Shown one piece after another: positions 12,187 to 48,501 of a DNA stretch of 64,000 nucleotides. The position numbers and the translations under genes were made by a program. The DNA comes from Rhodospirillaceae bacterium (GTDB lineage Bacteria > Pseudomonadota > Alphaproteobacteria > CACIAM-22H2), in NCBI GenBank assembly GCA_022843945.1, contig JALHMR010000009.1, positions 1 to 64,000 of the forward strand, in the 5' to 3' direction. Every line of letters begins with the position of its first letter. Within the stretch, counting starts at the first letter, position 1. Below the pieces are notes generated by a model. It saw only the letters and a list, made by a program, of their open reading frames with translations. It was not told where the DNA came from and did not search any database.

Positions 12187-13746
12187 ATGTCCGACACCAA
12201 GGACCCACGCGAAGTCGAACTGAAGCTGCGTATTCCGCCGGACTCCCTCCCGCGACTGATGCGCCATCGCCTGTTGCGCCGCTCCACCGAGGGCAGCGCG
12301 CTGAACCGGCGGCTCGTCTCGACCTATTTCGACACGCCCGATTTCCAGCTGATGCGCGCCCGCGTGGCCCTGCGTGTGCGCAAGGATGGCAGCCGCCGCA
12401 TCCAGACCGTCAAATGCGCCCCCACCATGGAGGACGGCGTCCATTCGCGGCGCGAATGGGAGCGCGAGGTCGGCGCCGACCAGCCGATGCTCAAGGGTGT
12501 CGGCAACAAGCAGTTGCGCAAGGTGTTGACCGCCGGGAAGGTCGAAGGCCGCCTGGCGCCGCAATTCGTCACCGATATCCGGCGCAGCACCTTCCCGATC
12601 AAGATGCGCGACAGCACCATCGAGCTGGCCGTCGATGTCGGCGAGATCACCTCCGCGAATGGGGGCGCCAAAGGCAAGGTGCCGGTCTGCGAGGCGGAGC
12701 TCGAACTCAAATCGGGCAACATCGCCGGCATGTACGCGTTGGCGCAGGAGCTCCACAAGAGCCTCGGCTGCACGATCGAGCCGTTGTCGAAGGCGGAACG
12801 CGGTTTTGCGCTGGTGCAGCAGACGCCGCCCAAGCCGCAGCGCGCCCAGGCCCTGCGCCTGGAGAAGGGCAGCACCCTGGCCCAGGCCTTCGTGCTGATC
12901 GGCCGCAACGGGCTGCTGCATCTGCGCAGCAACGAAGGCGCGGCGCGCACCGGCGCGACGGTCGAGGGCCTGCACCAGTTCCGCGTCGCCCTGCGCCGCC
13001 TGCGTTCGGCGCTGACCGCCTTTCGCGACGTGCTGCCGGCGGCCGAACGCCGCCGCTTCGGCCGGGACATGCGCTGGATCGCCCAGCGCTTCGGCCATGC
13101 CCGCGAATGGGACGTGTTCCAGCGCGACATCATCGTCCCCGTGCGCAAGCAGATCGGCGACGATCCGGCGCTGGCCGCTCTCGCCGGGGCGGCCAAGGCG
13201 GCACGGGCCGAGGCCTACAAGGTCGTGGGCGAGACGATGGCCTCGCCTCGCTTCACCGAGACGCTGCTGCGCCTCGAAGGCTGGTGGGAGGGCGGGGCGG
13301 CGGTCCAGGCCCTGGGCGATAACCGCGACGTCGACGTGCGCGATCATGCGCGCCAGACGCTCAAGCGGCTGCACCGGCGCGTGCGCAAGCTCGGCGAGCG
13401 CAGCGCCGAGCTCGATGAGGCCCAGCTGCACGAGCTGCGCATCCGCGCCAAGAAGCTGCGTTACGCGGCGGAGTTTTTCGAGAGCCTGTTCCCCCGCAAA
13501 GCCGTGAAGGAATACCTGGCCGCGCTGACCGGGATTCAGGACCGGCTCGGCTCGCTCAACGATGGCGCGATGGTCAAGCATCGGCTCGCCGCGATTCAGA
13601 AGCGCGGCAAGAATATCGACCCGGCGCTGCTGGGCCGCGCCACCGGCATCATCACCGGCTGGAACGCGGCGCGCGTGGCGGCCGACCTCAAGCGCCTGCC
13701 CGAAGCCTGGGACGGTTTCGCTTCGCTCAAGCCCTTCTGGAAATAG
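12187..13746 (+). CDS. CYTH-CHAD domain protein
   Basis: A 519-residue fusion. The N-terminal CYTH triphosphate-tunnel domain (residues about 8-210) keeps the E-x-E-x-K signature as EVELK at 9-13 and has YFDTPDFQL. The C-terminal CHAD domain (about 225-519) has the repeated His/Arg helices GLHQFRVALRRLRSAL and LHELRIRAKKLRYAAEFF. CHAD domains bind polyphosphate; CYTH domains hydrolyse triphosphate or related compounds. It is followed tail to tail by sixA, with ppk and ppx beyond, which supports a polyphosphate role. Whether it acts as a polyphosphatase or only as a granule protein cannot be read from sequence. Confidence 0.88.
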   Translation: MSDTKDPREVELKLRIPPDSLPRLMRHRLLRRSTEGSALNRRLVSTYFDTPDFQLMRARVALRVRKDGSRRIQTVKCAPTMEDGVHSRREWEREVGADQPMLKGVGNKQLRKVLTAGKVEGRLAPQFVTDIRRSTFPIKMRDSTIELAVDVGEITSANGGAKGKVPVCEAELELKSGNIAGMYALAQELHKSLGCTIEPLSKAERGFALVQQTPPKPQRAQALRLEKGSTLAQAFVLIGRNGLLHLRSNEGAARTGATVEGLHQFRVALRRLRSALTAFRDVLPAAERRRFGRDMRWIAQRFGHAREWDVFQRDIIVPVRKQIGDDPALAALAGAAKAARAEAYKVVGETMASPRFTETLLRLEGWWEGGAAVQALGDNRDVDVRDHARQTLKRLHRRVRKLGERSAELDEAQLHELRIRAKKLRYAAEFFESLFPRKAVKEYLAALTGIQDRLGSLNDGAMVKHRLAAIQKRGKNIDPALLGRATGIITGWNAARVAADLKRLPEAWDGFASLKPFWK

Positions 13747-14292
13747 TCAGTCGCCGGGCAGCAGCTCGGCCGGCGTGACGTAGCCGAGCAGCCGCACGCC
13801 GCCCGCCAGCCGCTCATCCGAGAGATCGCGCCAGCGCTCCAGCTTGAGCCGGAAGCGGGCCAGGGCCGCGGTCGGGAACTTCTGCTTCAGACGCTGCGCC
13901 TCCGCGTTGGCCCGGCCGCCGGCCGCGTCGGTGAGCTCCACGGCCAGCTCGTGCAGGCCAGGATTGTGCCCGATGACCAGGACGGACCCCGCCGTATCGG
14001 GCACCCGGCGCAGCCGTTCGAGAATGGTCGCCGGGTCGGCGAGGTAAAGCTCTGGTTCGATATGCCCGGGGATGCTGCTCCCCAGGGCTTCGGAGATGAA
14101 GTCCAGGGTTTCGCGGGTCCGTCGGGCCGGCGAACAGAGAATGAGGGCCGGCCGGAGCCCCTCGGCGGCCAGATAGCCGGCCATCACCGCGGCGCCCCGA
14201 CGCCCGCGCTTGTTGAGCGGGCGCTCGGTATCGGACATGCCGGGGTCCGCCCAACTGGACTTGGCGTGCCTCAAAAGAAACAATTCTTTCAT
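13747..14292 (-). CDS. sixA: SixA-like phosphohistidine phosphatase
   Basis: A 181-residue small histidine phosphatase. The catalytic R-H motif is MKELFLLRHAKSSW with R8 and H9; the second conserved histidine is in VLVIGHNPGLHEL. Family members remove phosphate from histidine on proteins such as the ArcB phosphotransfer domain. The stop is immediately next to that of the CYTH-CHAD gene. It diverges from ppk over an 87-bp gap, so it shares a promoter region with an enzyme that itself uses a phosphohistidine intermediate. The substrate is inferred. Confidence 0.83.
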   Translation of the reverse strand: MKELFLLRHAKSSWADPGMSDTERPLNKRGRRGAAVMAGYLAAEGLRPALILCSPARRTRETLDFISEALGSSIPGHIEPELYLADPATILERLRRVPDTAGSVLVIGHNPGLHELAVELTDAAGGRANAEAQRLKQKFPTAALARFRLKLERWRDLSDERLAGGVRLLGYVTPAELLPGD

Positions 14293-14379
14293 ATAGTTGT
14301 CACATTCTCTTGAGACTATTTCGAGCGCTCTTATAGCCGTCTTCCGAACTTATGCTAGCCTAGGCGGCCGGGGAGAGAA

Positions 14380-16527
14380 ATGAACGCTCAGGTCCAAACC
14401 GCCGATCGCCTGCCCGCCGAGTACACAGGCGGGGCGCGCTTCATCAATCGCGAGCTGTCGTGGCTGGCGTTCAATGAGCGTGTTCTCGAAGAGGCCGAGA
14501 ACAGCGCCCATCCGCTGCTGGAGCGCCTGCGCTTCGTCTCGATCTCGGCCAGCAACCTGGATGAGTTCTACATGGTCCGCGTGGCCGGGCTCAAAGGCCA
14601 GGTGCGCGCCCGGGTCACCACTCCCAGCCAGGACGGCCTGACGCCCGCGCAACAGCTCTCCGCGATCAACCAGCGTGCCAACAAGCTGATGGAGCAGCAG
14701 CAGCTCTGCTGGCGCACACTCAGGGGCGAGTTGCGCAACAAGGGCATCGCCGTCGTCTCGGCCAGTGAGCTGACGGCGGATGAGCGCCTGTGGGCCGATG
14801 CCCATTTCATGGACTCGATCTTTCCGGTCCTGACACCGCTCGCCATCGACCCGGCGCACCCGTTCCCCTTCCTGCCGAACAAGGGGTTTGCGCTCGTCCT
14901 TCACCTGCAGGGCCGGCGCGAGCCGCGCGCCCTCAAGGCCCTGCTGCTGCTGCCCGCCCAGATCGGCCGCTTCGTCCGCCTGCCGGGGGCGGAGACGCGC
15001 TTCCTGCCCGTCGAGGAGCTGGTCGGGCTCAATCTGGACAAGCTGTTTCCCGATTTCGATGTCGTCGGGCAGGGTGTCTTCCGCCTGCTGCGCGACAGCG
15101 AAATGGAAATCGATGAAGAGGCGGAGGATCTTGTCCGGGTCTTTGAGACCGCGCTGAAGCGGCGCCGTCGCGGCTCGGTCATCCGCCTCAAGGTCAACGC
15201 CGAGATGCCGGAAGACCTCCTGAGCTTCGTCACCGCCGAGCTCGAAGTGCTGCCGGACGACGTGTTCCGCGTCCACGGGCTGCTCGGCCTCGGCGACACC
15301 AAGCAGCTCATCGTCGGCGATCGCCAGGACCTGCTGTTTCCCCCGTTCAACCCGCGTTTTCCCGAGCGCGTCCGAGACTACGGCGGCGATTGCTTCGCCG
15401 CCATCCGGCAGAAGGACATCGTCGTTCACCACCCCTTCGAGAGCTTCGATGTGGTGGTGCAGTTCCTGTCCCAGGCGGCGCGCGATCCCGCGGTCGTGGC
15501 GATCAAGCAGACTCTCTATCGCACCTCCGACAATTCTCCGATCGTGCGCGCCCTGGTCGAGGCGGCCGAGGCGGGCAAGTCGGTGACCGCGCTCATCGAG
15601 CTCAAGGCGCGCTTCGACGAGGAGGCGAACATCCGCTGGGCGCGCGATCTCGAGCGCGCCGGCGCCCAGGTCGTCTACGGCTTCATCGACCTCAAGACGC
15701 ATGCCAAGATCTCTCTGGTCGTGCGGCGCGAAAGCGGCGGCTTGCGCTCCTATGCCCATTTCGGCAGCGGCAACTATCACCCGGTGACGGCGAAGATCTA
15801 CACCGACATCTCGTTCTTCTCGTGCGACGAGGCGGTCTGCCGCGATGCGGCCCGTCTGTTCAACTACATCACCGGCTATGCGCGCCCCGAGAAGATGGAG
15901 AAGCTCAGCTTCTCGCCGTTGACGCTGCGCTCGGACCTCACGAGCCTGATCGAGACCGAGATCGAGCACGCCAAGGCCGGACGGCCGGCGGCGATCTGGG
16001 CGAAGATGAATGCGCTCGTCGATCCGGGGATCATCGATACGCTTTATCGCGCCAGCCGCGCCGGCGTTTCCATCGACCTGGTGATCCGCGGCATCTGCTG
16101 CCTGCGCCCGGGCGTTCCGGGCCTGTCCGACAATATCCGGGTGAAAAGCATCATCGGCCGCTTTCTCGAGCACAGCCGGATCGTCTGCTTCGGCAACGGC
16201 CGCGGTCTGCCGCACCCGGAGTCCAAGGTCTTTATCTCGTCCGCGGACTGGATGCCGCGCAACATCGATTGGCGGGTCGAGACCTTCGTGCCCATCGAGA
16301 ACGTGACCGTGCATCAGCAGATCCAGGACCAGATCATGGTCGCGAACCTGCGCGATACGGCCCAAAGCTGGACCCTGGCGCCGGACGGTACCTATACGCG
16401 TATGCGGCGGGACGGCGAGGGTTTCAGCGCCCATAACTTCTTCATGACCAATCCCAGCCTCTCCGGCCGGGGCAAAGCGCTCAAAAAGCCCGGCGGCGCG
16501 CCTCGACTCATCCCGAAGAACCGGTAA
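14380..16527 (+). CDS. ppk: Polyphosphate kinase Ppk1
   Basis: Makes polyphosphate from ATP through an autophosphorylated histidine, at the membrane periphery. The 715-residue length is normal. The N-terminus [19 protein letters not shown] and [18 protein letters not shown] are canonical. The catalytic histidine lies in [18 protein letters not shown], and the second phospholipase-D-like half ends with [23 protein letters not shown] precedes the ATG. ppx follows after 12 nt, so synthesis and degradation enzymes are co-transcribed. Confidence 0.96.
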
Positions 16528-16539
16528 AATCCGCGGCAC

Positions 16540-18042
16540 ATGCCGTCGCGACTCCCGCCGGCGCGAGCTGCGGCTTCGGGCCCGGTCGGCGTCATCGACA
16601 TCGGATCGAACTCGATCCGGCTCGTGGTTTTTTCCGGCGAAAGCCGTTCGCCGCATCCCATCTTCAATGAAAAGGTGCTGTCCGGCCTCGGCCGGGGCCT
16701 CGAGCGCACCGGCCGGCTGCACGAGGACGGCGTCGAGCTCGCCCTGGAAAACCTGGCCCGCTTTGCCGCCCTGGTGAATGCCATGGGCGTGCGCCCGCTG
16801 CGCGTGGTCGCCACGGCCGCGGCGCGCGACGCCGAGAATGGCCGGGCTTTCGTGGCCGAGATCCGCAAGCGCTCCGGCCTGAAGGTCGAGATCCTCGACG
16901 GCAACGAGGAAGCGCGGCTTTCCGCCCTGGGCGTCGTCTCGGGAATGCCCGACGCCGACGGCCTGATGGGCGACCTGGGCGGCGGCAGCCTGGAGCTTGT
17001 GGCCCTGCGCAAAGGCAAGCTCGGCCGGCACGAGACGTCGCCGCTCGGTCCGCTGCGGCTGCGCGAGATGGCGGATCGCGGGCGCGGCCAGCTCCGCGAC
17101 CACATCGACCAGCATTTCGAGAGGCTGTCCTGGCTAAGCCAGGCCAAGGGACGGGACTTCTACGCGGTGGGCGGCGCCTGGCGCGCCATCGCTCGCCTGC
17201 ACATGGCACATAGCGGCTACCCGCTGCGGGTGATCCATCACTACACGATATCGAAAGGCCGGGCCGAGGACTTCCTCGACCTGATTGCCGGCCTGTCGAA
17301 GGAATCGCTGGAGCGGATCGGGCGGGTGCCGCGCAAGCGCCTCGAAGTGCTGCCACTGGCGGCGCTGGTGCTGCAGCGCCTGTTCGTGCACGCCAAGCCG
17401 GGCCGTCTCGTCTTCACCTCGATGGGCCTGCGCGAAGGTTGCCTCTTCGACGCGTTGCCCGAGCGTATCCGCCGCATGGACCCGCTGATCTCGGCCTGCG
17501 ACGAATCAGCCGAGAGCAATCCCCGCTTTCGTGTGGGAGGGCGGGCCCTGCATGCCTGGCTGCAGCCGCTGTTCCGCAAGGCCGACGCGGATATGGCGCG
17601 CTTGCGGCTTGCCGCCTGCCTGTTGGGCGATGTCGCCTGGAACGAGCATCCGGATTACCGGGCGGAAATCGCCTTTCTGCGCATCCTGCGCATGCCGGTC
17701 GTCGGCGTCGACCATCCGGGGCGGGCTTTCATGGCCCTGGCAGCCCACACGCGCTACGCCGGCACGGCCGAAGGCGAGGTGACCAGTGCCGCCTGGCAGC
17801 TGCTGGACGAGGAGCGTCTGCGCGAAGCCTGGCGCCTGGGCCTTGGGCTGCGCCTGGCTTACACGCTCTCCGGCGGTTCGCCCGAGGTGATCAAGCAGAC
17901 CCGGATCGAGCGCGACGCAAATTCCATCCGGCTCGTCGTGCCGACCCGCTGGGGATCGCTGATCGGAGAAGCCGTCCAACGCCGCCTCGACGCGCTGGCC
18001 GAGGCCCACGGCCGCAAGCCGAAGATCAAGATCGGGCGCTGA
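16540..18042 (+). CDS. ppx: Exopolyphosphatase, Ppx/GppA family
   Basis: A 500-residue phosphatase removing terminal phosphates from polyphosphate or the 5' phosphate of pppGpp. The actin-like ATPase fold is seen in GVIDIGSNSIRLVVF, LRVVATAAARDAENG, EILDGNEEARLSALGV and GDLGGGSLELV. A C-terminal HD-like extension follows from about residue 320. Location directly after ppk favours polyphosphate as substrate. A palindromic repeat and the convergent rnd gene follow. Confidence 0.92.
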   Translation: MPSRLPPARAAASGPVGVIDIGSNSIRLVVFSGESRSPHPIFNEKVLSGLGRGLERTGRLHEDGVELALENLARFAALVNAMGVRPLRVVATAAARDAENGRAFVAEIRKRSGLKVEILDGNEEARLSALGVVSGMPDADGLMGDLGGGSLELVALRKGKLGRHETSPLGPLRLREMADRGRGQLRDHIDQHFERLSWLSQAKGRDFYAVGGAWRAIARLHMAHSGYPLRVIHHYTISKGRAEDFLDLIAGLSKESLERIGRVPRKRLEVLPLAALVLQRLFVHAKPGRLVFTSMGLREGCLFDALPERIRRMDPLISACDESAESNPRFRVGGRALHAWLQPLFRKADADMARLRLAACLLGDVAWNEHPDYRAEIAFLRILRMPVVGVDHPGRAFMALAAHTRYAGTAEGEVTSAAWQLLDEERLREAWRLGLGLRLAYTLSGGSPEVIKQTRIERDANSIRLVVPTRWGSLIGEAVQRRLDALAEAHGRKPKIKIGR

Positions 18043-37821: not shown

Positions 37822-38118
37822 GTGACGCAGACCTTGCCGACCCAGGCACCGGCCGAAGAGCCCAAAGGCCCCGATTTGTCGACCATGGCGACGCGGGTGG
37901 GTGAGCGACTCGGTGAAACCGCCCAGCAGATCGACGACGTGGCCCGCTCCACCTGTCTGTTGGCGCTCGACGTCGCGCTCGAAGCGGACCGTCCCGGCCA
38001 TCTCGGCAAGGGCCTGGCCAAGGCCTCGCTCGAGGTCCGTCAGCTCGCCGCCCGGACCCAGCACAGTCTGGCCGAGCTCGAGGCCATGCTGAAGGCCGTC
38101 GAAGGCCGCGCCGCTTAG
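37822..38118 (+). CDS. Microprotein resembling the chemoreceptor signalling hairpin tip
   Basis: A 98-residue soluble protein starting at GTG 37822 behind a strong AGGAGG. Residues 37-79 read IDDVARSTCLLALDVALEAD and continue RPGHLGKGLAKASLEVRQLA, aligning without gaps to the tip of methyl-accepting chemotaxis proteins (in Tsr, [20 protein letters not shown] then [20 protein letters not shown]). By eye about half the positions are identical. Residues known to contact CheA/CheW (Tsr F373, V398, V399) are R, K and A here, so normal kinase coupling is doubtful. There is no membrane helix, HAMP or methylation region. The stop overlaps the tetR stop. Confidence 0.65.
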   Translation: MTQTLPTQAPAEEPKGPDLSTMATRVGERLGETAQQIDDVARSTCLLALDVALEADRPGHLGKGLAKASLEVRQLAARTQHSLAELEAMLKAVEGRAA

Positions 38119-38810
38119 CGTCCGAGCCCGCGCAGCGCCTGCGCGACAAGACGGCCGACGAAACGTCCTGTCGCCTTGCGACCCCCGACCAGAGTACGAA
38201 ACCACAGGGCGGCGATCAGCTGTTCGGCCGCCATTTTCACGTCGGCGTTACGGCGGATTTTGCCCCGGCTCCGGCCCTGCTTCAGCACCATGATCAGGCG
38301 ATCGGCATGCCCGCCGATGAGCCGGCTTTCCACCGTCGCCGCGATCGCCGGATCGGCCGCCGCCTCGGCCATCAGCCCGGCATAGATCTGCGCGCGGAGC
38401 GGCGAGGCAATCTCGCGCGCTAGCGCGTTCAGCAGCCGGATGAGGCGGGCAGGGAGCGCGCCGGTCCGGCTCTCCCGCCCCGGCTTGGGTTCACGCAAGG
38501 CTGACTCGCCAAGCAGGTCCGCGAACAGGGCCGGCTTGGTCTTCCACCAGCGATAGATCGTCTGCTTGCCGGCACCGGCTTCGGCGGCGATCGCCTCGAT
38601 CGTCACCCGGTTGTAGCCCTGCCGGCGCACGAGCCGGGCGGCGGCGCCGAGGATGGCGCGCTGCGTGGCGGCGCTGCGGCGGCCGGAATCGGGTTCCGGC
38701 TTTGTTCCGCGAAACCGATAACCAGGGCGGGACGGCCGAGGGGGCGCCACCCTCGGCGATCTTTTGCGGGTTTTCGTTTTTTTTCTTAACGGCTTTCGGC
38801 GAGTCGCCAT
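38115..38810 (-). CDS. TetR family transcriptional regulator
   Basis: A 231-residue repressor with a basic Lys/Arg-rich N-terminal extension of about 45 residues (MATRRKPLRKKTKTRKRSPR). The helix-turn-helix domain begins ATQRAILGAAARLVRRQGYN and has the recognition region TIEAIAAEAGAGKQTIYRWW. The C-terminal domain is TetR-like (LRAQIYAGLMAEAAADP). The ATG is only seven bases after a TATAAT box whose promoter spacer is an 18-bp palindrome, so autorepression and a leaderless transcript are likely. Ligand and other targets are unknown. Confidence 0.9.
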   Translation of the reverse strand: MATRRKPLRKKTKTRKRSPRVAPPRPSRPGYRFRGTKPEPDSGRRSAATQRAILGAAARLVRRQGYNRVTIEAIAAEAGAGKQTIYRWWKTKPALFADLLGESALREPKPGRESRTGALPARLIRLLNALAREIASPLRAQIYAGLMAEAAADPAIAATVESRLIGGHADRLIMVLKQGRSRGKIRRNADVKMAAEQLIAALWFRTLVGGRKATGRFVGRLVAQALRGLGR

Positions 38811-43271: not shown

Positions 43272-43571
43272 ATGGCGCTCGACAAAGCCACCGTGGCCCG
43301 TATTGCCACACTCGCCCGCATCAAGGTAGCCGATGCCGACCTCGACAAGATGGTCGGGGAGCTGCAGACCATCATCTCCTGGGTCGAGCAACTGGACGCG
43401 GTCGACACCAAGGGCGTCGAGCCGATGACCTCGGCCGTCGAGGTCACCCTGCCGATGCGCGAGGACAAGGTCTCGGACGGTGGCTACGTCGCCCAGATCG
43501 TGGCCAACGCGCCGGAGCCGGTCGTGGTGGGCGAGGGCGCCTTCTTCACCGTGCCCAAGGTGGTCGAATAA
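43272..43571 (+). CDS. gatC: Asp-tRNA(Asn)/Glu-tRNA(Gln) amidotransferase subunit C
   Basis: The small subunit that stabilises GatA-GatB, 99 residues. It starts MALDKATVARIATLARIKVA and ends VAQIVANAPEPVVVGEGAFF then TVPKVVE, the standard GatC pattern with R-E-D in LPMREDKVSDG. The gatA ATG follows the stop with no gap (TAAATG). Confidence 0.96.
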   Translation: MALDKATVARIATLARIKVADADLDKMVGELQTIISWVEQLDAVDTKGVEPMTSAVEVTLPMREDKVSDGGYVAQIVANAPEPVVVGEGAFFTVPKVVE

Positions 43572-45044
43572 ATGGCCGCCCTCACCGACCTGACGATTGC
43601 CGAAGCCCGCGATCAGCTGCGCGCCAGGAAGATCTCGGCGCGCGAGCTGGCCCAGGCGCATGTCAGCGCCGTGGCGAAGGCCAAGCAGCTCAACGCCTTC
43701 ATTACAGAGACGCCGGAGATGGCGCTGAGCATGGCCACCGCTTCGGACCAGCGGCTCAAGGCCGGTGACGGCGGCGCTCTCGAGGGCGTGCCGCTGGCCA
43801 TCAAGGACCTGTTCTGCACCAAGGATGTGCTGACCACGGCGGCCAGCCATATCCTGCACGGCTTCAAGCCGCCCTATGAATCGACCGTCAGCGCCAATTT
43901 GTGGAAGGCGGGCGCGGTCCTGCTCGGCAAGACCAACCTCGACGAGTTCGCCATGGGCTCGTCCAACACCACCAGCTATTACGGCCCGGTGCACAATCCC
44001 TGGCAGCGGCGCGGCGACAATCGGCCGCTGGTGCCGGGCGGCTCGTCCGGCGGCTCGGCCGCGGCAGTCGCGGCGCGGGTGGCGATGGGTGCGACCGGCA
44101 CCGATACCGGCGGCTCGATCCGCCAGCCGGCGGCCTTCTGCGGCCTGGTCGGCCTGAAGCCGACCTACGGCCGCTGCTCGCGCTGGGGCATCGTCGCCTT
44201 CGCCTCGTCGCTCGACCAGGCGGGCCCGATGACCCGCACGGTGCGCGATGCCGCCATCATGCTCGGCGCCATGGCCAGCCACGACCCGAAGGATTCGACC
44301 TCGGTGCCGCGTCCGGTGCCCGACTACGAGAAGGCGCTGACCGGCGACATCCGCGGCCTCAAGTTCGGCATCCCCAAGGAATACCGGATCGACGGCATGG
44401 CGCCGGAGATCGAGAAGCTCTGGCAGCAGGGAATCGAGTGGCTCAAGGCCGCCGGCGCCACGCCGGTCGAGATCAGCCTGCCGCACACCAAGTACGCGCT
44501 GCCGGCCTATTACATCATCGCGCCGGCAGAAGCGTCGTCGAACCTGGCGCGCTATGACGGCGTGCGTTTCGGTTTGCGCATCCCCGGTGATTCGCTGGAC
44601 GGCATGTATGAGAACACGCGCGCCGAAGGCTTCGGCGCCGAGGTCCAGCGCCGCGTGATGATCGGCACCTACGTGCTGTCGGCCGGCTATTACGACGCCT
44701 ATTACCTGAAGGCCCAGCGCGTGCGCTCGCTGATCGCCCGCGATTTCACCGAGGCCTACAAGAAGTGCGATGTCATCCTGACGCCGACCGCGCCCTCGGC
44801 AGCCTTTGCCATCGGTGAGAAGGCCGACGATCCGATCGCCATGTATCTCAACGACGTGTTCACCGTGACCGTGAATCTCGCCGGTCTGCCGGGCATTTCT
44901 GTTCCCGCCGGCCTCTCGGCCGAGGGCCTGCCGCTCGGCCTGCAGCTCATCGGTCGTGCCTTCGACGAGGAGACGCTGTTCCGCGTCGCCGGCGTGGTGG
45001 AGAAGGCGGCGAATTTCACGGCGCTGCCGCCGGGGATATCATGA
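43572..45044 (+). CDS. gatA: Glutamyl-tRNA(Gln) amidotransferase subunit A
   Basis: The 490-residue amidase that releases ammonia from glutamine for the transamidation of misacylated tRNA. The Ser-cisSer-Lys triad is visible: Lys in [15 protein letters not shown], the first Ser in [20 protein letters not shown] and the nucleophile in [16 protein letters not shown]. Its stop overlaps the start of an inserted HNH gene (ATGA); normally gatB would follow directly. Without the insert the frame would end one residue later at TGC-TGA. Confidence 0.97.
45038..45043 (+). repeat. ATCATG, left member of the direct repeat flanking the HNH gene
   Basis: ATCATG spans the gatA end and the HNH start codon; the same six bases recur at 45590-45595 across the gatB start codon. 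Joining the two would restore a gatA end (ISC-stop) overlapping gatB. Three of the six bases are start codons, so chance is not excluded. Confidence 0.45.
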
Positions 45045-45589
45045 AAGCCGCGGTGATTAAGAAGCGGCTGCGGCGGCAGAGAATTGTCGGTAAGGCCACG
45101 ACTGTCAGAGGTGCTTTTGCTTCTGCAGTAGCCCCGTTCGAGAAATTCGATCGCATTAAATTTTCTCGATGGCTTGAAGTTTTGGGCCAGCAAGAAGATG
45201 AAGATCTACGTTGTGTGTACTGCGGTGAGAAAGCTAATCACCTCGATCATCTTTTCAGTCTGATCTTCGATAAGAAGCCCTCTGGTTTTGGACATTTTAT
45301 CTTCAACACAGTGCCGGCCTGTCATGACTGCAACGTCAATAAGGGCTCGAAAAGTTGGCGTGATTGGCTTGAAGAGCGGCACGGCTCGAATCCTGCGGAG
45401 ATTGCCCGGCGATCAAAGATTCTGTCGAAGGTCGAGGCGGAGCTTCTTAACGATAAGAGCTGCAAGTACGATCTCGCACCTGTTTCGACCGAGATCGATA
45501 GCCTTATAGCTATTCGCGAAGAGGTGCTTACCCTAATGCGGAAGGCAGATGAGTTAGCTGCAGCAATTCACAAGCGTATGAGGCCATAG
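45041..45589 (+). CDS. HNH endonuclease inserted between gatA and gatB
   Basis: A 182-residue protein with one HNH nuclease module: zinc pair C58-V-Y-C61-G, catalytic H67-L-D69-H70, N89 in [13 protein letters not shown] and second zinc pair C94/C97, then KGSKSW. An N-terminal basic region ([14 protein letters not shown]) may bind DNA and the C-terminus is helical. Hand counting 45121-45300 gives 77 G/C of 180 (43%), against 78 of 120 (65%) in flanking gatA and gatB lines, with AT-ending codons, which indicates recent transfer. It is coupled to gatA by ATGA and separated from gatB by three bases. Target unknown. Confidence 0.82.
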
Positions 45590-45595
45590 ATCATG
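45590..45595 (+). repeat. ATCATG, right member of the direct repeat flanking the HNH gene
   Basis: The second ATCATG, containing the gatB ATG, matches the one at 45038-45043. The segment between equivalent positions is 552 bp, a multiple of three. Confidence 0.45.
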
Positions 45596-47047
45596 CTGAT
45601 CGATGGCAAGACGGGCACGTGGGAGCTGGTGATCGGGCTGGAGGTCCATGCCCAGGTGACCTCGAAGGCCAAATTGTTCTCGGGCGCCGATACGGTGTTC
45701 GGCGCCGAGCCCAACACGCAGGTGAGCTTCGTCGATGCGGCGTTCCCCGGCATGCTGCCGGTGATCAACCGCTTCTGCGTCGAGCAGGCGGTGAAGACCG
45801 GTCTTGGCCTCGGCGCCGAGATCAACCTGGTCTCGATCTTCGACCGCAAGAACTACTTTTACGCCGACCTGCCGGCCGGCTATCAGATCTCGCAGTACAC
45901 GCGGCCCGTGGTCGGCAAGGGCACGCTGGTGCTCGACATGCCGGACGGCCAGTCGCGTACCGTCGGCATCACGCGCCTGCATCTGGAGCAGGACGCCGGC
46001 AAGTCGCTGCACGATCAGCACCCGACCAAGACCTACGTCGATCTCAACCGCTCCGGCGTGGCGCTGATGGAGATCGTCTCGGAGCCGGACCTGCGCTCGC
46101 CCGAGGAGGCCGGCGCCTATCTCAAAAAGCTGCGCGCCATCCTGCGCTATCTCGGCACCTGCGACGGCAACATGGAGGAAGGCTCCATGCGCTGCGACGC
46201 CAACGTCTCGGTGCGCAAGCAGGGCTCGAAGGAACTCGGCACGCGCTGCGAGATCAAGAACGTCAACTCGGTGCGCTTCGTCATGCAGGCCATCGAGTAC
46301 GAGGCGAACCGCCAGGTCGAGCTCATCGAAGAGGGTGGCACGGTCCAGCAGGAAACCCGGCTGTTCGATTCAGGCAAGGGCGTGACGCGCTCCATGCGCT
46401 CCAAGGAGCACGCGCACGATTACCGCTATTTCCCCGATCCCGACCTACTGCCGCTGGTTCTGGACGAGAAATGGGTCGCGGGGCTGAAGGCCGCGCTGCC
46501 GGAGCTGCCGGACACCAAACGCGAGCGTTTCATCAAGGACTTCAAACTGTCGCCTTACGACGCCAGCGTGCTGGTCGCCGAGAAGGAGCAGGCCGAGTAC
46601 TTCGAGGCCGTGGCCCAGGGCCGCAAGGATCCCAAGCTCGCCGCCAACTGGGTGATGTCGGAGCTCTTCGCCGTGCTCAACCGCCAGAACCTCGATATCG
46701 CCCGCTCGCCGGTCAAGGCGACGGCGCTCGCCGGGCTGCTCGACCTGATCGAGAACAACACGATCTCCGGCCGCATCGCCAAGGATGTCTTCGCCGAGAT
46801 GGTGGAGAGCGGCAAGGATGCCGCCGCCATCGTCGAGCAGAAGGGTCTCAAGCAGGTCACCGACACCGGCGCCATCGAGAAGGCGGTCGATGACGTGATC
46901 GCCGCCAATGCCGACAAGGTCGAGCAGATCAAGGCCGGCAAGGTGCAGCTCATCGGCTGGTTCGTCGGCCAGGTGATGAAGGGGACCGGCGGCAAGGCCA
47001 ATCCCGGCATGGTCAACGAGATCCTGAAGAAGAAACTCGGGATCTAG
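45593..47047 (+). CDS. gatB: Asp-tRNA(Asn)/Glu-tRNA(Gln) amidotransferase subunit B
   Basis: The 484-residue subunit binding and activating the misacylated t[21 protein letters not shown] starts the protein; [37 protein letters not shown] and the ATP-site region are conserved. The C-terminal YqeY-like tail domain ends [20 protein letters not shown]. Translation probably depends on ribosomes finishing the inserted HNH gene, since only three bases separate them and no Shine-Dalgarno is obvious. Confidence 0.97.
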
Positions 47048-47065
47048 CACAGGAGGGGGAACGTC

Positions 47066-47878
47066 ATGGCCAAAGCGCAGAAGAAAGCCAAAGCGAAGCC
47101 GCCATCCAAAAAGACGAAGTCCCGGAAACCGAAGAAGCTCGTCGCCACTGCCAGCATCAAGGCGGCGGCCAAAAAGTCCGCTGCCAAGGCGGCGAAGGGC
47201 GCGCCGATCGGCAAGAAGCCGCGCCAGGCATCAGCCAAGAAGGCCGACGACACGATCACGCTGCACGGCGTGTTCCTCTCCATGCCGACCGCCAAGGTCG
47301 GGCTGATGCTGTCGATGTGTGGCGCCAAGTGGAACTACCGCCACGTCGACATGCGCGCCGGCCAGCACAAGTCGCCGGAGTTCCTGGCGATGAACCGCTT
47401 CGGCCAGGTGCCGGTCTTGCAGCACGGCAGCCGCTCCATCGCCCAGTCGAATGCCATCCTGCAATACCTGGCGCAGCACTTCGGCAAGTTCCAGGGCCGC
47501 AACGAGAGTGAAACCTGGCGCATCGCCGAGTGGCTGAGCTGGGATTTCGACCGCTTCTCCACGGGGGTGGGCCTGTGCCGCACCTTCGCCAAGTTCCAGC
47601 CACAGACGCCGGAAGAGGTGAAGGCCTTCATGCGCACGCGCGGCGATCAGGCGCTGGCAGCACTCGATCGTCATCTGGGGACGAGCAAGTTCATGGTCGG
47701 CGGCGCGCCGACCATTGCCGACATCGCCATCTTCCCGTGGATCGCCACGGCGGACGAGGGCGGCTTCACCGTCGCCAACTATCCCAACGTGCACGCCTGG
47801 GCCGAGCGCATGCTCGGCCAGCCGGGCGTGGCGCATCCCTACAATCTCCTGCCCAAAGAGGACCGCGTCGCGGCTTGA
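47066..47878 (+). CDS. Glutathione S-transferase-like protein with a histone-H1-like N-terminal tail
   Basis: A 270-residue protein in two parts. Residues 2-61 are Lys/Ala/Pro-rich (AKAQKKAKAKPPSKKTKSRK, then a stretch with IKAAAKKSAAKAAKGA), like bacterial H1-type DNA-binding tails. From about residue 62 a GST fold begins (TITLHGVFLSMPTAKVGLML), with the thioredoxin-like domain (NRFGQVPVLQHGSRSIAQSN) and the helical domain (GGAPTIADIAIFPWIA). AGGAGGGGG is a strong ribosome-binding site. A second GST gene follows after 5 nt. A nucleoid location is suggested by the tail but unproven. Confidence 0.8.
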   Translation: MAKAQKKAKAKPPSKKTKSRKPKKLVATASIKAAAKKSAAKAAKGAPIGKKPRQASAKKADDTITLHGVFLSMPTAKVGLMLSMCGAKWNYRHVDMRAGQHKSPEFLAMNRFGQVPVLQHGSRSIAQSNAILQYLAQHFGKFQGRNESETWRIAEWLSWDFDRFSTGVGLCRTFAKFQPQTPEEVKAFMRTRGDQALAALDRHLGTSKFMVGGAPTIADIAIFPWIATADEGGFTVANYPNVHAWAERMLGQPGVAHPYNLLPKEDRVAA

Positions 47879-47883
47879 ACACC

Positions 47884-48501
47884 ATGATCGATCTCTACAC
47901 CTGGGGAACGCCCAACGGCCGCAAGGTCTCCATCATGCTCGAGGAGCTCGGCCTGCCGTACAGGACGCACCCCATCAACATCGGCAAGGACGACCAGTTC
48001 AAGCCCGAGTTCGTCGCCATCAACCCCAACAGCAAGATCCCGGCGATCGTCGACCCCGAGGGTCCCGGCGGCAAGCTGCCGCTGTTCGAATCCGGCGCCA
48101 TCCTCATCTACCTCGCCGAGAAGACCGGCAAGTTCCTGCCGTCGGACCCGCGCAAGAGGATCATCGTGCTGCAGTGGCTGATGTTCCAGATGGGTGGCGT
48201 CGGCCCGATGTTCGGCCAGACGCACCACTTCCTGCGCAACGCCAAGGAAGACGTGCCCTACGGCAAGCAGCGCTATCATGCCGAGACCAAGCGGCTTTAT
48301 GGCGTGATGAACAAGCGCCTGGGCGAGGCCAGGTACCTGGCCGGCGACGAGTACACCATCGCCGACATCGCCACCTTCCCCTGGGTCTCGCGCTACGAGT
48401 GGCACCAGGTCGACCTGGGCGAGTTCCCCAACGTCAAGCGCTGGTTCGACGAGATCGCGGCTCGGCCTGCGGTGAAGAAGGGGATGGCCGTCCCGGGCTG
48501 A
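47884..48501 (+). CDS. Glutathione S-transferase, YfcG/Ure2p-like
   Basis: A 205-residue GST with the N-terminal thioredoxin fold (MIDLYTWGTPNGRKVSIMLE, NPNSKIPAIVDPEG, FESGAILIYLAEKTGKFLPS) and a C-terminal helical domain (AGDEYTIADIATFPWVSRYE). TWGTPNGRKV is the YfcG-type motif; such enzymes show disulfide-bond reductase activity with glutathione. It is co-transcribed with the Lys-rich GST. Confidence 0.88.
   Translation: MIDLYTWGTPNGRKVSIMLEELGLPYRTHPINIGKDDQFKPEFVAINPNSKIPAIVDPEGPGGKLPLFESGAILIYLAEKTGKFLPSDPRKRIIVLQWLMFQMGGVGPMFGQTHHFLRNAKEDVPYGKQRYHAETKRLYGVMNKRLGEARYLAGDEYTIADIATFPWVSRYEWHQVDLGEFPNVKRWFDEIAARPAVKKGMAVPG

Follow-up and report, generated by a model that had tools for sequence, protein, structure and literature searches.

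A glutathione transferase with a conserved lysine- and alanine-rich N-terminal arm, encoded behind gatB in an alphaproteobacterial family

Does the lysine- and alanine-rich stretch that precedes a glutathione transferase (GST) at this locus belong to the protein, and, if so, what might it do for a detoxification enzyme? The window, as we call the whole 64,000-nucleotide stretch of DNA analyzed, carries on the plus strand at 47066-47878 an open reading frame of 270 amino acids with an ATG start. Its first 63 residues (47066..47254, +) form a basic tail rich in K, A, and P, as defined by composition, conservation, a tail-only profile search, and an internal-start scan; residues 64-270 (47255..47878, +) form the GST domain, as defined by Pfam, a PDB sequence match to 3m3m, and alignment. 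The gatB stop lies 18 bp upstream of the ATG, which is preceded by caggagggggaacgtcATG, with caggagggggaacgtc read 5' of it. The ribosome site is a strong AGGAGG, part of a Shine-Dalgarno-like stretch of AGGAGG and subsequent G's (cacaggagggggaacgtcATG; 47051..47059, +). The window's family was sampled as 23 genomes, which are also all the sampled genomes of its order; an orthologue is present in 14 of these, and in all 14 it bears the tail. The internal-start scan of the window tail returned zero in-frame ATG, GTG, or TTG codons after the first codon, ruling out an internal start as the origin of the GST for the window gene. The tail lacks an internal in-frame start codon in seven of the 14 family orthologues, the window's included; the others have in-frame GTGs there, and L023 has one ATG in addition. 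A frameshift or out-of-frame artifact was also rejected, because pN was below pS in the tail frame in all five pairs compared and because the tail is present in 14 genomes. The preliminary description had envisaged a GST fused to a Lys/Ala/Pro-rich tail of about 60 residues, with an internal start as the alternative; the arm is indeed part of the gene's reading frame, which opens at a proper start; it is N-terminal and precedes an intact GST fold.

The enzyme part looks ordinary. GST_N spans residues 64-137 (PF02798, E 9.6e-16, 58.3 bits against a cut-off of 20.9) and GST_C_2 residues 187-248 (PF13410, E 5.3e-11, 42.9 bits against 24.9), and the protein thus has the thioredoxin-like N domain and helical C domain of a cytosolic glutathione transferase. 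Among solved structures, 3m3m is the closest in sequence (E 5.7e-23). S72, P74, K77, Q114-V115-P116, Q127-S128, and T216...D219 are invariant in 13/13 full orthologues, in all of which the G-site and catalytic loop residues are kept. S72, Q114-V115-P116, and Q127-S128 align to the S, V/I-P, and E-S of 3m3m, with Q here in place of the E of E-S. We take S72 to be the catalytic serine, from general knowledge of GSTs and the 3m3m alignment, and from these motifs the enzyme, Ser-type by alignment, is predicted to be catalytically active. It scores under the curated cut-offs of GstA, of MaiA (TIGR01262, 69.7 bits versus 171.05), and of YfcG and YghU (NF010579 and NF008731, 61.5 versus 332 and 62.2 versus 325).

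Residues 1-63 contain 22 K+R versus only two D+E, and K+A+P account for 67% of the tail. Such a composition is rare in this genome: at least 11 Lys in a 40-residue stretch within the first 90 residues was found in one of 379 filtered ORFs (464 kb of genome, selected by a base-composition filter that may miss genes), the one being the tailed GST, with 15 Lys. The tail is histone-H1-like in composition, but it is not a free low-complexity run, since much of it is defined conserved sequence. Orthologue alignments identify a core at residues 24-50 (KLVATASIKAAAKKSAAKAAKGAPIGK; 47135..47215, +), with a consensus across the family tails of approximately KVLKATxAIKxAAxKSAxxAAKGAxI. Within it, A27, A35, A39, A42, A43, and A46 are invariant in the 13 full orthologues, and L25, I31, S38, G45, I48, and K50 are conserved in at least 90% of them. 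Family tails range from 59 to 80 residues in length. Counting the window's own, 13 of the 14 conserve residue order beyond composition: in comparison with the window tail, for 12 of the 13 others no more than one in 1000 shuffles of their own composition scored as well, and the sole exception was L022, for which 103 of 1000 shuffles reached the score. With L017 as reference, 12 of 13 again passed, and L022 was again the exception (70/1000). L022 has lost the core motif while retaining length and basic composition (71 amino acids, 22 K+R), as would be expected if it is charge that counts.

The tail is under purifying selection. In five pairs of orthologues, tail pN/pS was 0.28, 0.08, 0.34, 0.76, and 0.22, all below 1, against 0.23, 0.09, 0.17, 0.45, and 0.26 for the respective GST parts; by these values the tail is looser than the GST domain in three pairs and tighter in two, the ratio for L001/L011 being a rough one because tail pS there (0.72) is near saturation. 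A profile built from the 14 tails alone returned their own 14 loci, each with an E value of 7.2e-9 or less. It gave one weak match besides (E 0.004), to a frame of 483 residues in G007; this frame overlaps with a longer one, and the match appears fortuitous. The idea of the tail as a promiscuous module shared with other proteins was rejected in the family on that basis. The tail had no match among solved chains (E up to 1) and no convincing family in Pfam. A predicted structure, computed from two input sequences, drew a helix at residues 29-43 at pLDDT 36, a confidence too low for use. Nor was an amphipathic helix in the core supported, the core being no more amphipathic than its shuffles. A basic N-terminal stretch (MATRRKPLRKKTKTRKRSPRVAPP...) is also found elsewhere in the window, ahead of the DNA-binding domain of a TetR-type regulator (38115-38810, minus strand).

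Tailless homologues were looked for in close relatives, and none was found in the family, in which the tail is fixed. Nine of the 23 genomes have no tailed GST gene, and it is therefore dispensable. The region behind gatB could be read in seven of these nine (eight loci) and contained no tailless copy: in G004, G008, and G011, a YfcG-like GST directly follows gatB, and in four genomes of genus g5 (G005, G009, G014, and G016; loci L119, L121, L122, and L123), gatB and the YfcG-like GST are separated by another frame, of about 270-283 codons. In G010 the contig ends, and in G021 gatB was not found. G011, a 74% complete genome, has two gatB copies (L124 and L130) on different contigs and is possibly a mixed bin. 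The GST of G002 is split, its N-terminal part (L023, on G002:C245) running into unrelated sequence and its C-terminal part (L026, on G002:C473) beginning another contig; this is probably an assembly chimera. Neither the tree nor alignment A1 includes L023, which is truncated by this apparent assembly break; 13 full orthologues remain.

Tailless orthologues occur only further off, in other families. At E 1e-40 or better, 45 of 385 genomes in an even class-wide sample and 36 of 398 in a phylum sample had a match. Reading 67 loci (L041-L107, which include some repeats of earlier places) revealed a K/A-rich arm on three, namely L051 (family f123) and L052 and L054 (family f82, genus g88), and none on the others. 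Outside the family, most orthologues have their start at the GST domain, and some of these, too, lie directly behind gatB; in the f82 sister genus g177, 3/3 loci are tailless (L131, L132, and L134). A maximum-likelihood tree of 54 GST domains calls for three changes of the tail label (three also at the 5% and 95% bootstrap bounds); with shuffled labels the average is 14. Beyond composition, no clear match to the family tail was seen for the arm of L051, L052, or L054: of 1000 shuffles, 51, 735, and 475, respectively, reached their score versus the window tail, and 301, 555, and 667 versus that of L017, the L051 arm being nearest to the family tail. A common origin of all tails was rejected on these scores and the tree. 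At least three gains or losses occurred on one orthologue group, most simply read as three gains, and the family tail is a later addition to a GST that was once tailless and that follows gatB in some other families too.

That polyanions are bound by the tail is a fair inference from its charge. Our favored reading, held tentatively, is that the polycationic arm anchors an ordinary GST to some polyanion in the cell, nucleic acid being the likeliest, for local detoxification. A single protein would combine a soluble Ser-type GST with a strongly positive 63-residue N-terminal arm; the arm would act as an electrostatic anchor, on chromosomal DNA in the first place and RNA in the second, and anchoring would raise glutathione conjugation or peroxide reduction locally, where electrophiles would damage nucleic acid. 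Charge is favored because basic composition survives loss of the core in L022 and recurs in the unrelated arms of other families. As judged from sequence, both the binding of nucleic acid by the arm and local detoxification as its benefit are plausible, and a nucleoid GST that protects DNA would be a hypothetical form of the same arrangement. Conservation of the core in the rest of the family indicates that something more specific than charge has been added there. Points that weigh against the anchor are this conservation of uncharged core positions, the dispensability of the gene, the tail's lack of a match among solved chains and Pfam families, and a core no more amphipathic than shuffles.

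The position of the gene raises the alternative that RNA or the translation apparatus (tRNA, GatCAB, or the ribosome), rather than DNA, is what the tail binds, and that the GST, since it is co-produced with GatB, assists or protects tRNA-dependent amidation. gatB (45593..47047, +; Pfam) is the upstream neighbor, with gatC (43272-43571) and gatA (43572-45044) further upstream; the gatA-gatB interval of ~550 bp (45045-45592) contains no ORF that passes the coding filter. A same-strand gatB precedes the GST in 14/14 family loci. The two genes are 2-49 bp apart in 11 loci, and in the other three the gap is 117, 325, and 903 bp. In other families, the tailless L058, L060, and L070 also stand directly behind gatB (the gatB reading frame and the GST domain are 30-55 bp apart), as does L170, and GST-like domains assemble eukaryotic tRNA synthetase complexes, in which Arc1p binds tRNA via another domain (PMC4394549). 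However, adjacency to gatB occurs without a tail in L058, L060, and L070, and a tail occurs with no gatB within the 1.5 kb flanks in L051 and L054. Because gatB precedes tailless orthologues, the place in the operon predates the tail, at least on present sampling. Moreover, gatB is retained in family genomes that lost the GST, Arc1p_N_like scores well under its cut-off (14.2 bits versus 27), and the Pfam matches include no tRNA-binding domain. We consider a role in translation unlikely on balance. A docking function is about equally improbable in our judgment: the core would be a helix that docks on a protein partner, on the GST's own dimer, or on the neighboring YfcG-like GST, with charge secondary. 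A pure charge anchor would not require L25, A27, I31, S38, G45, and I48 to be so strictly retained; docking on a partner would also fit, Ala, Ile, and Leu positions of the core being invariant or nearly so beyond composition. A candidate partner is at hand, as the next gene (47884..48501, +; Pfam and NCBIfam) encodes a second, tailless GST of the YfcG/YghU kind. Of the 13 full family loci, 11 have a YfcG-like GST as the following gene (in L014 it lies ~0.7 kb further on, and in L015 none is found before the contig end), and seven of nine loci checked outside the family have one downstream; in other alphaproteobacterial families the two GST genes again occur as a pair, whether or not a tail or gatB is present. 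Against docking, the pair occurs without a tail in L060, L131, L132, and L134, L022 has dispensed with the core and not with its basic composition, and the tails of other families share composition, not the core. The helical moment, furthermore, is not above that of shuffles in 13 of the 14 tails (z at most 1.7), L021 being weakly exceptional (z 2.2).

Two other readings seem to us very improbable. The preliminary description had connected the tail with polyphosphate through enzymes encoded in the same window, which would make the tail a means of directing the GST to polyphosphate granules. Genes for a CYTH-CHAD protein, a histidine-phosphatase-family protein, PPK1, and PPX do form a compact cluster at 12187-18042, PPK1 was found in 20 of the 23 family genomes, and PMC9239181 reports the H1-like AlgP on polyphosphate granules, its KPAA tail being needed for granule spacing. 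However, the ppk cluster is ~31 kb from gatB in the window. The ppk1-gatB distance is 24-37 kb in each of the six genomes that carry the two genes on a single contig (G000, G012, G015, G020, G005, and G009), and since G005 and G009 keep it without a tailed GST, it reflects regional gene order with no specific link. G006 (83% complete), conversely, has a tailed GST and no PPK match. The link drawn from the shared window was therefore not borne out. Slightly less probable still, the tail might aid translation, folding, or solubility, or be a low-complexity extension that is nearly neutral and readily acquired. Unrelated tails did arise on the same GST in other families, and tail length varies by some 20 residues within this one, but a pN/pS below 1 in every pair (and below that of the GST domain in two of the five), the conservation of a specific core across genera, and the occurrence of such a tail in 0 of the 378 other sampled ORFs all argue against such a reading.

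Returning to an anchor on nucleic acid, a more elaborate version can be formulated, which we regard as speculative and rather doubtful. Positively charged arms would have been acquired at least three times, and in the window's family the arm would by now have become a sequence-specific address tag, in the form of the core consensus. Held by this tag on nucleic acid or the translation machinery, the GST, co-produced with GatB and the YfcG-like partner, would be a dedicated electrophile shield for DNA or RNA. GSTs are usually treated as freely diffusing. A conserved built-in anchor, if real, would offer a clean example from nature with which to ask if bacteria place detoxification enzymes at the molecules they protect. 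The repeated gain of similar arms on one orthologous group points to selection and suggests that bacterial Lys-rich arms extend beyond proteins already known as DNA binders.

A literature search, which covered few subscription papers, returned no report of a bacterial GST with an H1-like tail and none of a gatB-GST operon. With the cytosolic GST superfamily (bacterial Ser-type, 3m3m; loosely MaiA-like), the protein shares the GST_N and GST_C domains, and its SxPxxK loop with S72, Q-V-P, Q-S, and TIAD motifs line up with those of solved GSTs; it differs by its polycationic N-terminal arm of 63 residues. The eukaryotic Arc1p/AIMP-type proteins of tRNA synthetase complexes have a GST-like fold in common with it, and a subunit of a tRNA amidotransferase is here the gene neighbor, whereas the tailed GST is without a tRNA-binding domain and its GST motifs look catalytic. 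The closest parallel to the arm is offered by bacterial histone-H1-like tails (AlgP, PhaF, HupB, and actinobacterial TopA). AlgP and HupB both bind DNA through their K/A/P-rich tails, and AlgP is in addition associated with polyphosphate granules (PMC9239181 and PMC5676037); a survey of prokaryotic Lys-rich low-complexity regions (PMC6821194) links them to DNA-binding proteins. The GST arm resembles these in being a long, strongly positive Lys/Ala/Pro-rich tail on a folded domain. The known tails are mostly repeats (KPAA, PAKK/KAAK), whereas the GST tail is non-repetitive, the window tail having a single KAAK, no KPAA, and no PAKK, and thus no tandem array of any of them. Finally, the tails of AlgP, PhaF, HupB, and TopA are C-terminal and belong to DNA- or granule-binding proteins, whereas the arm described here is N-terminal and is carried by a detoxification enzyme.
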